Below, piece by piece: positions 58,702 to 63,524 of a DNA stretch of 64,000 nucleotides (its first letter is position 1; every line of letters begins with the position of its first letter). The translations under genes were made by a program, and so were the position numbers. The stretch is taken from contig NZ_CP014232.1 in assembly GCF_001553935.1 (NCBI RefSeq), positions 2,542,001 to 2,606,000 on the forward strand. Direction: 5' to 3'. The stretch is from Actinomyces oris (GTDB lineage Bacteria; Actinomycetota; Actinomycetes; Actinomycetales; Actinomycetaceae). The notes beneath the pieces are model-generated. The model saw only the letters and a program-made list of their open reading frames with translations. It did not search any database and was not told where the DNA came from.

Positions 58702-60816
58702 ATGACCACTGAGGTCACAACATCTGCCACCACGGCGAGCGGCAATGACGCCTGGGAGGGCTTCGGCACCGGACCGTGGACCGAGGACATTGACGTCCGC
58801 GACTTCATCCAGCGCAACTACACCCCCTACGACGGCGACGCCTCGTTCCTTGCCGACGCCACGGACAAGACCCTGCGTCTGTGGGACACCCTGGAGAAGA
58901 ACTACCTCTCCGAGGAGCGCAAGGTCCGCATCCTCGACGTCGACACCCACACCCCCGCCGACATCGACGCATTCCCGGCCGGCTACATCAGCGAGGACGA
59001 CGATGTCATCGTTGGCCTGCAGACCGACTCCCCGCTGCGTCGCGCCATGATGCCCAACGGCGGCTGGCGCATGGTGGAGACCGCCATCAAGGAGGCGGGC
59101 AAGGAGGTCGACCCCGAGGTCAAGAAGATCTTCACCCGCTACCGCAAGACCCACAACGACGCGGTCTTCGACATCTACACCCCGCGCATCCGCGCGGCGC
59201 GCTCGAGCCACATCATCACCGGTCTGCCCGACGCCTACGGCCGCGGCCGCATCATCGGTGACTACCGCCGCGTGGCGCTCTACGGCGTCGACTTCCTCAT
59301 CGAGCAGAAGCAGAAGGCCAAGGACGCCGTGGCGGACAAGCCCTTCTCCGAGCACTGGGCCCGCTACCGCGAGGAGCACTCCGAGCAGATCAAGGCGCTC
59401 AAGAAGCTCAAGGTCATGGCTCAGACCTACGGCTACGACATCTCCGGCCCGGCCAAGAATGCCCACGAGGCGGTCCAGTGGACCTACTTCGCCTACCTGG
59501 CCTCCGTGAAGTCCCAGGACGGCGCCGCCATGAGCATCGGTCGGCTCTCCGGCTTCTTGGACATCTACTTCGAGCGGGACCTGCGCAACGGGGTCATCGA
59601 CGAGACCCGCGCCCAGGAGCTCATCGACAACATCGTCATGAAGCTGCGCATCACCCGCTTCCTGCGCACCATCGACTACGACCAGATCTTCTCCGGCGAC
59701 CCCTACTGGGCCACCTGGTCCGACGCCGGTTTCGGTGAGGACGGTCGCGCCCTGGTCACCAAGACCTCCTTCCGTCTGCTGCAGACCCTGCGCAACCTCG
59801 GTCCTGCCCCGGAGCCGAACATCACGATCTTCTGGGACGAGAACCTGCCGCAGGGCTACAAGGACTTCTGCGCCCTCATCTCGATTACGACCTCCTCCAT
59901 CCAGTACGAGGCCGACGAGCAGATCCGTGAGCACTGGGGCGACGACGCCGCGATCGCCTGCTGCGTGTCCCCGATGCGCGTGGGCAAGCAGATGCAGTTC
60001 TTCGGTGCCCGCGTCAACTCCGCCAAGGCCCTGCTCTACGCCATCAACGGTGGTCGTGACGAGATGACCGGCAAGCAGGTCGTCACCGGCCTGCCCGGCA
60101 TCGAGGGCGACGGCCCCCTCGACTTCGACGAGGTCTGGGACAAGTACGAGAAGATGCTCGACTGGGTGGTGGCCACCTACGTTGAGGCCCTCAACATCAT
60201 CCACTACTGCCACGACCGCTACGCCTACGAGTCCATCGAGATGGCGCTGCACGACTCCGACATCGTGCGCACCATGGGTTGCGGCATCGCCGGTCTGTCG
60301 ATCGTGGCCGACTCGCTGGCGGCCATCAAGTACGCCAAGGTCACCCCGGTTCGCGACGAGACCGGCCTGGTGGTCGACTACGTCACCGAGGGCGACTTCC
60401 CGATCTACGGCAACGACGACGACCGCGCCGACGACATCGCCGCCACCGTGGTCCACACGATCATGTCCAAGATCAAGGCCCAGCCCTTCTACCGGGACGC
60501 CATCCCGACCCAGTCGGTGCTGACGATCACCTCCAACGTGGTCTACGGCAAGGCAACCGGCTCCTTCCCCTCGGGGCACCAGAAGGGCACCCCCTTCTCT
60601 CCCGGAGCCAACCCGGAGAACGGGATGGACACCCACGGCATGGTTGCCTCGATGCTCAGTGTCGGCAAGCTCGACTACAACGACGCCCTCGACGGCATCT
60701 CGCTGACCAACACGATCACCCCGCAGGGACTGGGTCGCACGCTCGACGAGCGCGTCGCCAACCTTGTGGGCATTCTCGATGCCGGCTTCGTCCCCGACGA
60801 CTGCGCCGAGATCTGA
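58702..60816 (+). CDS. pflB: Formate C-acetyltransferase large chain lacking the glycyl-radical domain
   Basis: Converts pyruvate and CoA to acetyl-CoA and formate without oxygen. The 704 residues cover the whole barrel with the active-site pair C420-C421 in [14 protein letters not shown]. Typical formate lyases are about 760 residues and end in a glycyl-radical segment; this one stops just after [12 protein letters not shown], with no RVSGYAV motif. That segment is encoded by the next gene, 76 bases downstream. ATG at 58702 follows AGGAGG; a longer frame from 58546 has no family features. The first of three genes pflB-grcA-like-pflA. Confidence 0.92.
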
Positions 60817-60892
60817 TCGAGCCGCTCAATCCGGCCGATCACACCGCAGCAATTTCCACACATCGATCACATCACCTCAGAAAGGGGCCACC

Positions 60893-61138
60893 ATGGCCAC
60901 GTACGAAGAGCGCCTCGCCTCCATGAAGGCACAGCGTCAGGACAACGGCGGCGTCAAGGGCCTGTACCACGCCAACATCAACGTCCTGGACCGCAACACC
61001 CTCGAGGACGCGATGGAGCACCCGGAGAACTACCCGAACCTCACGGTTCGCGTCTCCGGCTACGCCGTCAACTTCGTCAAGCTGACTCGCGAGCAGCAGC
61101 TTGACGTCCTCCACCGCACCTTCCACTCCCAGGCCTGA
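60893..61138 (+). CDS. Separate glycyl-radical subunit of pyruvate formate-lyase (GrcA-like)
   Basis: An 81-residue protein consisting of the glycyl-radical domain alone: [14 protein letters not shown] at 28-41 and the radical segment [20 protein letters not shown] at 53-72 with radical G56. This is the C-terminal end of a normal formate lyase and resembles the autonomous radical cofactor GrcA (YfiD) of E. coli. Since the large chain has no such domain, this protein is probably essential rather than a repair spare. A gap of 76 bases follows pflB, with AAAGGGG before ATG 60893. pflA follows 23 bases later. Confidence 0.92.
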
Positions 61139-61161
61139 GCCCTGGAGCACGGCGAGCGGTC

Positions 61162-62037
61162 ATGACGCAGACCACGACGACCGTGCGCGACGGCGGTCGG
61201 GACCAGGACTTCCTGGCCCCGGCCGCTCGCTTGCGCGGTGCGGGCATCGGCGGGCTCGAGGAGCTGACGGATCTTCAACGCTCGGAACGCCTGGCTCGGA
61301 TGCGCGATGGCGAGCTGGGCTCGATCCACTCCTGGGAGCTCGTGACCGCGGTGGACGGCCCCGGCACCCGGATGACGGTCTTCCTCAACGGATGCCCCCT
61401 GCGGTGCCAGTACTGCCACAATCCCGACACCTTCCTCATGAAGGACGGGGAACCGGTGGAGGCCTCGGAGCTTCTCCGCCGCATGCGCCGCTACCGGGGG
61501 GTGTTCCGCGCGTCCAAGGGCGGGATCACGCTGTCGGGCGGTGAGGTCCTCATGCAGCCGGCCTTCGCGGGCAAGCTCCTGGCCGGGGCCAAGAAGATGG
61601 GCATCCACACCTGCATCGACACCTCAGGATTCCTGGGTGCCAATGCCAGTGACGAGATGCTCGATAACATCGACCTGGTCCTGCTCGACGTCAAGAGCGG
61701 TGACGAGGAGACCTACAAGAAGGTGACGGGGCGCTCCCTGGCCCCGACCATCACCTTCGGTGACCGTCTGGCAGCCAAAGGGATCGAGATCTGGGCCCGG
61801 TTCGTGCTGGTTCCAGACCTGACGGACGCCCCTGAGAACGTCCACAACGTGGCCCGAATCATCGAGCGCTGGGGCTCGGTCAGCCGCGTCGAGGTGCTGC
61901 CCTTCCACCAGATGGGTACCGACAAGTGGGACGCCCTGGGACTGACGTACCAGCTTCGTGACACCAGGCCCCCGGAGCCGGAACTGGTGGAGTCCACTCG
62001 CGCCATCTTCCGTTCCTACGGCTTCGAGGTCCACTGA
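61162..62037 (+). CDS. pflA: Pyruvate formate-lyase activating enzyme
   Basis: Radical SAM enzyme that makes the glycyl radical on G56 of the small subunit. The 291 residues begin with a 55-residue extension, then the cluster motif C78, C82 and C85 (GCPLRCQYCHNP). The rest is the PflA-type barrel with SGGEVLMQP near 128 and the LLDVKSGDEETYKKVTG segment near 173-189. ATG 61162 has GAGCGG before it. It is the last gene of the pfl operon and convergent with the RNase D-like gene. Confidence 0.95.
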   Translation: MTQTTTTVRDGGRDQDFLAPAARLRGAGIGGLEELTDLQRSERLARMRDGELGSIHSWELVTAVDGPGTRMTVFLNGCPLRCQYCHNPDTFLMKDGEPVEASELLRRMRRYRGVFRASKGGITLSGGEVLMQPAFAGKLLAGAKKMGIHTCIDTSGFLGANASDEMLDNIDLVLLDVKSGDEETYKKVTGRSLAPTITFGDRLAAKGIEIWARFVLVPDLTDAPENVHNVARIIERWGSVSRVEVLPFHQMGTDKWDALGLTYQLRDTRPPEPELVESTRAIFRSYGFEVH

Positions 62038-62147: not shown

Positions 62148-63524
62148 TCAGCCCAGTGCTGCGGCGAGAGCGGGGGAGGCCTGCTCGATTTGCCACGGTC
62201 TGGCCCCCATGGCGACCAGACGCTCACTGATCTCCTGAGCAGTGACTCTGCCGGTACGACCGGCCTCGATCTCCGCGCCGAGGTCCCAAGCTAGATGACG
62301 TTGGCACTCCGGGGTCAGGAGGAGTTCCTGGGGCACGCGGATCTCCTCAGCGTGCTGTCTGATGGCCGCGCGTACCTCGGTCAGCCGCTCGGCGGCCGCG
62401 GCGTGGTGACGCTGCCAGGAGCGCGGATGGGGGAGCTCGCCGGGCGCCAGTGGTGCGCGGGTGGGGGGAAGCTCGTCGTCGGGCAGCTCCAGGGCGCGTT
62501 CGATGGCTCTCCACCAGCGCTCCTGGTTCTGGCGGGCCTGACGGGAGGAGAACTCCTTGAGGGCACTCATCTTGCGTCGTGACCGGGGCCGGGCGACGGC
62601 GGCGGCGACCAGTGCCTGGTGGGGGAGGACCTTGGAGGGGGTGCGGTCGAGCTCTGCGGCCAGCTGCTCGCGCGAGTTCCACAGCTCGCGCAGGATGGCG
62701 AGTGAGCGGGGGGATCGCACGGAGCTTCCTGCTCGCGGGGTCTTGCGCCATGGGTCGACCTTGGCGGGTTTGGCCGGCTTGGTGCGCACGTGCTCGAACT
62801 CCTGGGCGGCCCACTGGTCCTTGCCGGCCGCCTCGAGCTCGGTGGCCAGAGCATCGCGCAGGTCAATGAGCAGCTCGACGTCGAGGGCGGCGTAGGTGAG
62901 CCAGGAGGCGGGCAGGGGCCGGGTGGACCAGTCCGCGGCCGCGTGGTCCTTGGCCAGGCGCAGGCCCAGGGTCTCCTCGATGACGGCGCCGAGCCCGACG
63001 TGCTGCCGGCCCAGGAGGCGGGCCGCCAGCTCGGTGTCGAACAGGGAAGCGGCCTTCAGGCCGCGTGCGGTCAGGCAGGGGATGTCCTGGTCGGCGGCAT
63101 GGAGGATCCACTCGGGTCCGTCGAGGGCTGTGGCCAGCTCGGTCAGGGGCCCGGCGGTGACCGGATCGATGAGCAGGGTGCCGACGCCGTCCCGGCGCAG
63201 CTGGATGAGGTAGGCGTCCTGTCCGTAGCGGAAGCCGGAGGCTCGTTCGGCGTCGACGGCGACGGGGCCCCGACCGGCCGCCAGGAGCTGAGCGGCTCGG
63301 TTCAGCTGGGTGGGGGTGGCGGTGATCTCAGGGAGCCCGTCCTTGGGACGGGGGTAGTCGACGATGTCGTGCGGATTGATGGGGTGATCTGTTGTGCCAG
63401 GGGGGACGGCTGGGCGGGGCACGGCCGAGGAAGCAGTTGGGCGGGGCACGGCCGAGGAAGCAGTTGGGCGGGGCACGGCCGAGGAAGCAACTGGGCGGGG
63501 CACGCCGGTGCGGCGGGGCGTCAC
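62148..63524 (-). CDS. RNase D-like 3'-5' exonuclease with HRDC domain
   Basis: A 458-residue protein with a DEDD exonuclease domain (about 65-240; D91 and E93 in VAVDAERASG, D147 in the HAADQDI motif, and the Tyr/Asp of YAALDVELL) and a C-terminal HRDC domain (about 280-370) that binds nucleic acid. The family trims RNA or DNA 3' ends. The N-terminal 45 residues are a repeat (PRPTASSAV in three to four copies) encoded by a 27-bp tandem repeat. GTG at 63524 overlaps the stop of the DUF3000 gene by four bases, so the two form an operon. Confidence 0.9.
   Translation of the reverse strand: MTPRRTGVPRPVASSAVPRPTASSAVPRPTASSAVPRPAVPPGTTDHPINPHDIVDYPRPKDGLPEITATPTQLNRAAQLLAAGRGPVAVDAERASGFRYGQDAYLIQLRRDGVGTLLIDPVTAGPLTELATALDGPEWILHAADQDIPCLTARGLKAASLFDTELAARLLGRQHVGLGAVIEETLGLRLAKDHAAADWSTRPLPASWLTYAALDVELLIDLRDALATELEAAGKDQWAAQEFEHVRTKPAKPAKVDPWRKTPRAGSSVRSPRSLAILRELWNSREQLAAELDRTPSKVLPHQALVAAAVARPRSRRKMSALKEFSSRQARQNQERWWRAIERALELPDDELPPTRAPLAPGELPHPRSWQRHHAAAAERLTEVRAAIRQHAEEIRVPQELLLTPECQRHLAWDLGAEIEAGRTGRVTAQEISERLVAMGARPWQIEQASPALAAALG
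63412..63503. repeat. 27-bp tandem repeat in the RNase D gene
   Basis: Three full copies (63412-63438, 63439-63465 and 63466-63492, the third with two changes) plus 11 bases of a fourth. Each encodes nine residues of the pattern VPRPTASSA. Confidence 0.9.

Follow-up and report, generated by a model that had tools for sequence, protein, structure and literature searches.

In Escherichia coli, oxygen cuts pyruvate formate-lyase (PFL) at its glycine, and the small protein YfiD/GrcA then supplies a new radical domain, as described in the accessible portions of two reports (PMC8683613, PMC12338860). According to the same portion of the second, cells with the PflB variant G734A form formate when GrcA is present but none when it is absent (PMC12338860). 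The first gives measurements on tPFL (residues 1-695), which with YfiD yielded 0.5 µM radical, against 15.9 µM for cPFL with YfiD, and the activity of the activated tPFL complex was little affected (PMC8683613). Here we describe a locus of Actinomyces oris in which a comparable division is written into the genome. It lies in a stretch of 64,000 nucleotides (hereafter the window; assembly GCF_001553935.1, contig NZ_CP014232.1, positions 2,542,001 to 2,606,000) and consists of a gene for a large PFL chain, a gene for a small glycyl-radical chain, and pflA. Our analysis makes it very probable that the locus encodes an obligate two-chain PFL, in which the radical would be passed between the chains and the small chain would be docked through a motif of its own.

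Results

A PFL divided between two genes

The window locus is a real split PFL. The original prediction, made from the DNA letters, had described a pflB with a C420-C421 pair, an 81-residue gene carrying the radical glycine G56, and pflA; its coordinates, lengths and spacings (76 bases before the small gene and 23 between the small gene and pflA) are all correct (Table 1). Cys420-Cys421 is the sole Cys-Cys pair of the large chain, and the large and small genes are read in different frames, with starts 2191 bases apart.

Together, the two chains cover TIGR01255 (744 positions), the large chain spanning positions 1-681 and the small chain 680-742. Alone, the large chain scores 991.5 bits and falls less than 3 bits short of the cut-off of 994.2 that marks the whole-length enzyme; the glycyl-radical loop is not on it and sits on the separate 81-residue chain. 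The break runs through the domain PF01228, at position 65 (large chain 1-65, small chain 65-106). Likeness of the large chain to E. coli PFL stops at residue 696 (E. coli 693), just after the helix preceding the last barrel strand, and residue 18 of the small chain aligns with E. coli PFL 696. The small chain belongs to GrcA2 (NF008341; 166.2 bits, cut-off 145) and scores below the cut-offs of GrcA3 (NF038360; 98.5 bits against 158) and of E. coli-type GrcA (TIGR04365; 84.6 bits against 170). The activase beside the PFL is of the PFL type (TIGR02493; 301.8 bits, cut-off 231.75). A scan of the + strand of the 76-base gap found no promoter-like or terminator-like match; a promoter-like match was likewise absent before the large gene, and the result at the small gene thus says little.

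The host genome is a single contig of 3,042,917 bases, listed as 100% complete. A whole-genome profile search matched PF02901 once and PF01228 twice, in each case at the window locus, and neither a second PFL nor a further PF01228 domain was found beyond it in this complete genome. The full-length PFL on which repair by an E. coli-type GrcA would act is therefore absent, in agreement with the original prediction, and so is the intact copy that would have made this locus a damaged duplicate. Since the genome holds no other radical source, the small chain must be an obligate subunit, as had been supposed.

The arrangement is general in the genus. A PF02901 match and the small gene are each present in 49 of 49 genus genomes, and in every one of them the small-gene match shares contig and strand with the PF02901 match and lies 326 to 487 bases away; the expected constant neighbourhood of the small gene and the split pflB was thus borne out. 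The small chain is under purifying selection (pS, the proportion of synonymous differences, 0.16-0.30 versus pN, that of nonsynonymous differences, 0.021-0.060, in seven pairs); the large-chain pN was invalid in six of the seven pairs owing to unaligned insertions and deletions and was not used. Eight of the 49 genomes contain a second, distant glycyl radical enzyme (L004-L008, L013, L015, G028), with a radical domain 43-46% identical to the small chain; it is PFL2-like in the one checked (L005) and broken in at least two genomes (G023, G028). A ninth genome (G014) has an extra PF02901 fragment at a contig end. In Actinomyces provencensis (L044:3387-6344), an extra pflA copy follows a piece matching the end of the small gene, which looks like a partial tandem duplication.

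Distribution and phylogeny of the Actinomyces-type split

The loci came from the 80 best named ones out of at least 586, from 60 further stretches, and from the genus and the window; those with a PFL match above 800 bits and a radical domain, 154 in all, were classified. They were picked for holding a radical domain and are not a census; 149 of the 154 core sequences are distinct, and each of the five identical pairs is probably two copies of one genome. Ninety-nine loci are split, 54 are full-length and one is fused. The distance from large-gene stop to small-gene start in the split loci ranges from -4 to 219 bases (median 62), and an activase match lies on the same strand in 96 of the 99, the other three having none in the stretch examined.

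Split PFL occurs in Actinomyces, Schaalia, Trueperella, Arcanobacterium, Actinotignum and Varibaculum, among others, and likewise in Corynebacterium, Propionibacterium, Brachybacterium and Dermabacter; related full-length PFL occurs in Cellulomonas, Sanguibacter, Rarobacter, Tessaracoccus and Bifidobacterium. In a survey of the family, at least 196 of 213 genomes have a PF01228 match among the matches listed. An even draw across the class gave 45 of 394 genomes with such a match, and there the match table reads as the split pattern in three (G000, G293, G588); the remaining genomes show a single full-length-type match, except G220 (a piece cut off by a contig end), G313 (two full-length matches) and G548 (a match of 1-99 in a shorter frame). 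Two apparent further cases were set aside: a lone small gene in G220 begins at the contig end and is hence a cut-off gene, and, among the extra PF01228 matches in other genera, the one that was identified (L113) belongs to an anaerobic ribonucleotide reductase.

Split forms and their full-length relatives fall into one clade (support 100). The trees place full-length forms among split forms, but a single split clade is not rejected by the approximately unbiased test (p 0.447); the radical-domain tree, built on only 58 columns, resolves little. The Actinomyces-type split may have had one origin or more than one.

A conserved N-terminal motif and a candidate docking patch

The 99 split loci contain 81 distinct small chains, in which R7, M11 and R15 are invariant (81 of 81) and T3, E6, L8, K12 and A13 are conserved at 84% or more; conservation reaches at least 95% in residues 23-32, and the radical domain hardly varies over most of its length. 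The pattern R-x3-M-x3-R ahead of the radical loop is present in every one of the 99 split loci and in the fusion, and in none of the 54 full-length enzymes; the fuller T[YF]xER[LMV]xxMKxxR is found in 78 of the 99 and again in none of the 54. The earlier statement that the small gene encodes just the radical domain is thus right as to the domain, which is there, but misses the motif added to it. We propose that this motif docks the small chain on the large chain. An origin of the N-terminus by duplication of the helix that precedes the last strand was considered and is unsupported, with no detectable likeness: a pinned profile alignment of motif and helix gave p = 0.016 without kept columns, p 0.15 when two anchor-adjacent columns were kept and 0.37 when five were. 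Among five choices of alignment window, just one ranked the helix highest within the full-length enzyme, and there it was tied.

On the large chain, S519, A581, T582, H585 and I601 are constant or almost constant among the split forms and in neither full-length group (100 split-type rows, namely the 99 split loci and the fusion, compared with groups of 25 and 29 rows). For their clustering, a permutation on seven columns returned 0.0026, and three of the five residues lie within 100 degrees on one helix. As a docking site for the small chain, this patch is a lead only.

In the activase, a strict ERLxxM-like pattern at the N-terminus, before the conserved site, was found in 28 of the 63 split loci whose conserved activase site was recognised and in none of the 15 such full-length loci. 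It was set aside as a mark of the split form, near variants occurring at the same place in full-length lineages.

A second split at another site

An even draw across the phylum gave at least 54 of 296 genomes with PF01228 among the matches listed. In the families f60 and f81, whose hosts are taken, from their sequences, for Olsenella and relatives, short radical-domain frames are found in 12 of the 13 genomes having any match. In all 12 corresponding stretches (L173-L184), the large chain ends earlier and the small chain includes the preceding helix; one further stretch (L185, a short frame from G727) holds a distant radical domain only. The chains of L183 span 1-665 and 664-744 of TIGR01255, and its small chain is a GrcA3 (165.7 bits, cut-off 158). 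The named relatives of this PFL type are Olsenella and Thermophilibacter, and in the tree the 12 early-cut loci form one clade (support 100) that is far removed from the Actinomyces type and separated from it by full-length enzymes. Since this second split has another cut site (665/664 rather than 681/680), PFL has probably been cut at least twice, at different sites, as judged from sequence.

All 12 early-cut large chains have tails that carry at least two cysteines close to their end, as in CDCC or CGCC. The Protein Data Bank (PDB) entries 38LA (687 residues) and 38LB (739 residues) are formate acetyltransferase chains that show no radical-domain match. The second is of the early-cut type, its match extending into the odd tail, and a predicted 718-residue protein is identical to it across the 678 residues compared; a structure of a domain-less PFL chain (38LB) therefore exists, for which our literature search found no paper.

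Fused and possible intermediate forms

In Corynebacterium sp. Marseille-P4321 (L067:1335-3737), the large and small chains are fused in frame. A TAC stands where three relatives have the stop TAA, and the frame runs across the gap into the small gene, giving an open frame of 827 residues in which the small gene's own ATG is retained; the read-through may be a real fusion or a sequencing error. A fold was computed for 801 residues of this protein from 69 alignment rows (itself, 20 full-length, 24 large and 24 small chains). The model (pLDDT, the predicted local distance difference test, 80.6; pTM, the predicted template modelling score, 0.85) aligns with E. coli PFL (2pfl_A) over 749 residues at 1.9 Å, model residues 5-801 lying on chain residues 4-759, and the small part is thus predicted to occupy the place of the E. 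coli C-terminal domain. The modelled linker (692-726) has a pLDDT below 50.

Silvimonas terrae (L108:1344-4849) has, in a row, a full-length pflB in which the stretch ahead of the last strand is extended, a gene for a free 61-residue radical domain, and pflA. The free domain matches the domain of its own PFL at 51 of 60 residues and 136 of 180 bases. This layout is what a step between the full-length and split forms would be expected to look like, but it comes from another phylum. Comparison of these sequences suggests an order of duplication, loss of the main-chain end, and occasional rejoining.

Table 1. Features of the split PFL locus, in window positions
Feature	Position	Strand	Remarks
PFL large chain	58702..60816	+	704 residues; ATG start at 58702, stop ends at 60816
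Cys420-Cys421 codons, catalytic pair (E. coli C418/C419)	59959..59964	+	E. coli numbering as given in the accessible portion of PMC12338860
Stretch with S519, A581, T582, H585 and I601	60256..60504	+	candidate docking patch for the small chain
Intergenic gap, large-gene stop to small-gene start	60817..60892	+	76 bases
Shine-Dalgarno-like AGAAAGGGG	60879-60887	+	in the gap, before the small gene
Small glycyl-radical chain	60893..61138	+	81 residues; NCBIfam GrcA2
N-terminal motif T[YF]xERLxxMKAxR of the small chain	60899..60937	+	residues 3-15
Gly56 codon	61058..61060	+	predicted glycyl-radical site, in RVSGYAV
pflA, radical S-adenosylmethionine activase	61162..62037	+	291 residues; TIGR02493
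CPLRCQYC of pflA	61393-61416	+	

Beyond the locus, on the reverse strand, the reading frame 62148-63524 begins with TASSAVPRP repeats (about 63400-63510).

Discussion

We propose that the large chain carries the active-site cysteines, binds the substrates and is unable to make a glycyl radical, and that the small chain contributes the last barrel strand, the glycyl loop and the C-terminal helix. The small chain would dock on the large chain, where PflA would place the radical on Gly56; the radical would then probably move to the Cys pair of the large chain, a transfer for which E. coli GrcA offers a precedent, and this pair would cleave pyruvate with coenzyme A (CoA) to acetyl-CoA and formate. 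The N-terminal motif would stand in for the lost covalent tether and probably docks on the patch around S519, A581, T582, H585 and I601.

For Actinomyces naeslundii, the accessible part of one study reports secretion of formate, regarded by its authors as confirmation of the PFL route (PMC6493303). Over the part compared, genome G018 has the same PFL chain as A. naeslundii NCTC 10301 (L033), and the one PFL match of this genome is of the split type.

Several observations weigh against the two-chain mechanism proposed here. Secretion of formate does not prove that PFL is its source, and the study strain may differ from the genomes analysed here; our literature search found no biochemistry of this pair of large and small chains. 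The bare split at this site works poorly in E. coli: in the accessible portion of the report, tPFL (1-695) with YfiD truncated to 61-127 gave 2.7 µM radical (PMC8683613). The structure model is that of a fusion and not of separate chains, its alignment contained full-length enzymes, and E. coli PFL was probably among the training structures of AlphaFold2, so that the model is probably biased; the added helix (724-737) has a block-mean pLDDT of about 50, which is low confidence. As to the patch, 11 of the 100 split-type rows are without one or more of the five residues, seven of these at 581, 582 or 585; pooling the full-length rows gives 12 separating columns; and several other clades show at least three clade-specific columns within five residues, most of these clades having at least 16 such columns in all. 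The poor activation of tPFL also means that a natural split at the same site needs something that restores binding, and by analogy with that laboratory enzyme we propose the conserved motif as the best candidate.

How the division came about, and whether it serves a purpose, can be read in more than one way. The split may have been locked in without advantage, a free domain having made the domain of the main chain dispensable so that it was lost; we consider this a reasonable account, if somewhat short of an even chance. The layout in Silvimonas is as expected of an intermediate, and the fused Corynebacterium protein, if genuine, is evidence that the split state is not final. Silvimonas is only distantly related, however, and the conserved N-terminal motif and the two separate cut sites suggest some use for the arrangement.

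A use might lie in a replaceable radical subunit: oxygen would destroy the small chain only, which would be swapped while the large chain is kept. As an addition to the obligate two-chain enzyme this idea is tentative, and we rate it slightly below fission without advantage. Actinomyces, Corynebacterium and Dermabacter are largely facultative, which counts in its favour. Further support is that oxygen cleaves PFL at the glycine and that GrcA-type proteins restore activity, according to the accessible portions of both E. coli reports (PMC8683613, PMC12338860). Against this, the sequence holds no evidence of exchange, and a second split is found in the Olsenella-like hosts. These hosts are anaerobes, which counts against a role in recovery from oxygen, as does the presence of related full-length enzymes in Cellulomonas and Sanguibacter, both facultative. 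The lack of a promoter-like match before the small gene is a weak argument against exchange, such a match being absent before the large gene too. The original prediction tied the advantage to life on tooth or mucosal surfaces; given the separate split in the Olsenella-like relatives, an advantage of that kind is not needed. The wider proposal, that PFL was cut two or more times, each time at another site, to give a catalytic chain that is obligate and a radical chain that can be exchanged, that a new docking helix and a matching patch in Actinomyces restore the affinity and activation missing from the laboratory split, and that the oxygen-sensitive radical thereby became a consumable subunit, a genetically fixed form of spare-part repair, appears unlikely when taken as a whole.

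That the small protein is a spare part only, a GrcA repair cofactor for intact PFL, is very improbable: its NCBIfam name, autonomous glycyl radical cofactor GrcA2, speaks for it, but the genome has no intact PFL (one PF02901 match and two PF01228 pieces) and the large chain is without a radical glycine. An assembly error, a frameshift or a decaying pseudogene can be dismissed as next to impossible: nothing was found in favour of any of them, different frames and recurrence throughout the genus mean that no single sequencing error creates the split, and the layout in 49 of 49 genus genomes, the 99 split loci and the purifying selection on the small chain all speak against it.

If the locus is an obligate two-chain PFL, the first consequence is one of naming, an obligate subunit being labelled as a repair cofactor. 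Databases name such small proteins GrcA, GrcA2 or formate acetyltransferase. The names GrcA2 and GrcA3 were not found in open-access papers, most subscription journals lying outside the search, and no obligate split PFL is described in the titles and abstract openings that our searches listed, which mostly do not cover subscription journals, so that earlier reports may exist. A natural two-chain PFL would make radical installation, transfer between chains and oxygen damage each separately testable; if the small chain is exchangeable, it would also show how glycyl radical enzymes might be designed to recover from oxygen. The evolution of enzyme fission becomes testable through the two cut sites, the fused relative and the full-length enzyme that has a free domain copy beside it.

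Comparison with known systems

E. coli PflB (TIGR01255; PDB 1H16/2PFL) resembles the window enzyme in whole-length alignment, in the Cys pair and in the RVSGYAV loop, but carries the radical glycine on the same chain, whereas in the window it is on a separate chain. E. coli GrcA/YfiD (TIGR04365; PDB 6OWR) is likewise a free glycyl-radical domain, which acts in trans to repair a full-length enzyme and whose N-terminal half is disordered, as stated in the accessible portion of PMC8683613; the window small chain differs in being the only radical source and in bearing a short conserved motif. It is a member of NCBIfam GrcA2 (NF008341), a family named as a cofactor, whose model entry is silent on a partner PFL without the domain. 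The Olsenella-like split, with GrcA3 (NF038360), also pairs a large chain without a radical domain with a separate small chain, but its cut lies before the helix (665/664) and that of the Actinomyces type after it (681/680), its small chain has a different N-terminus, and its large-chain tails carry cysteines. The laboratory pair of tPFL (1-695) and YfiD 61-127 is, in the same portion of its report, cut at nearly the natural place, but it is artificial, poorly activated and without the natural N-terminal motif (PMC8683613). The chemistry of PFL and its partners were already known; what appears to be new is the obligate split, the two cut sites and the added motif.

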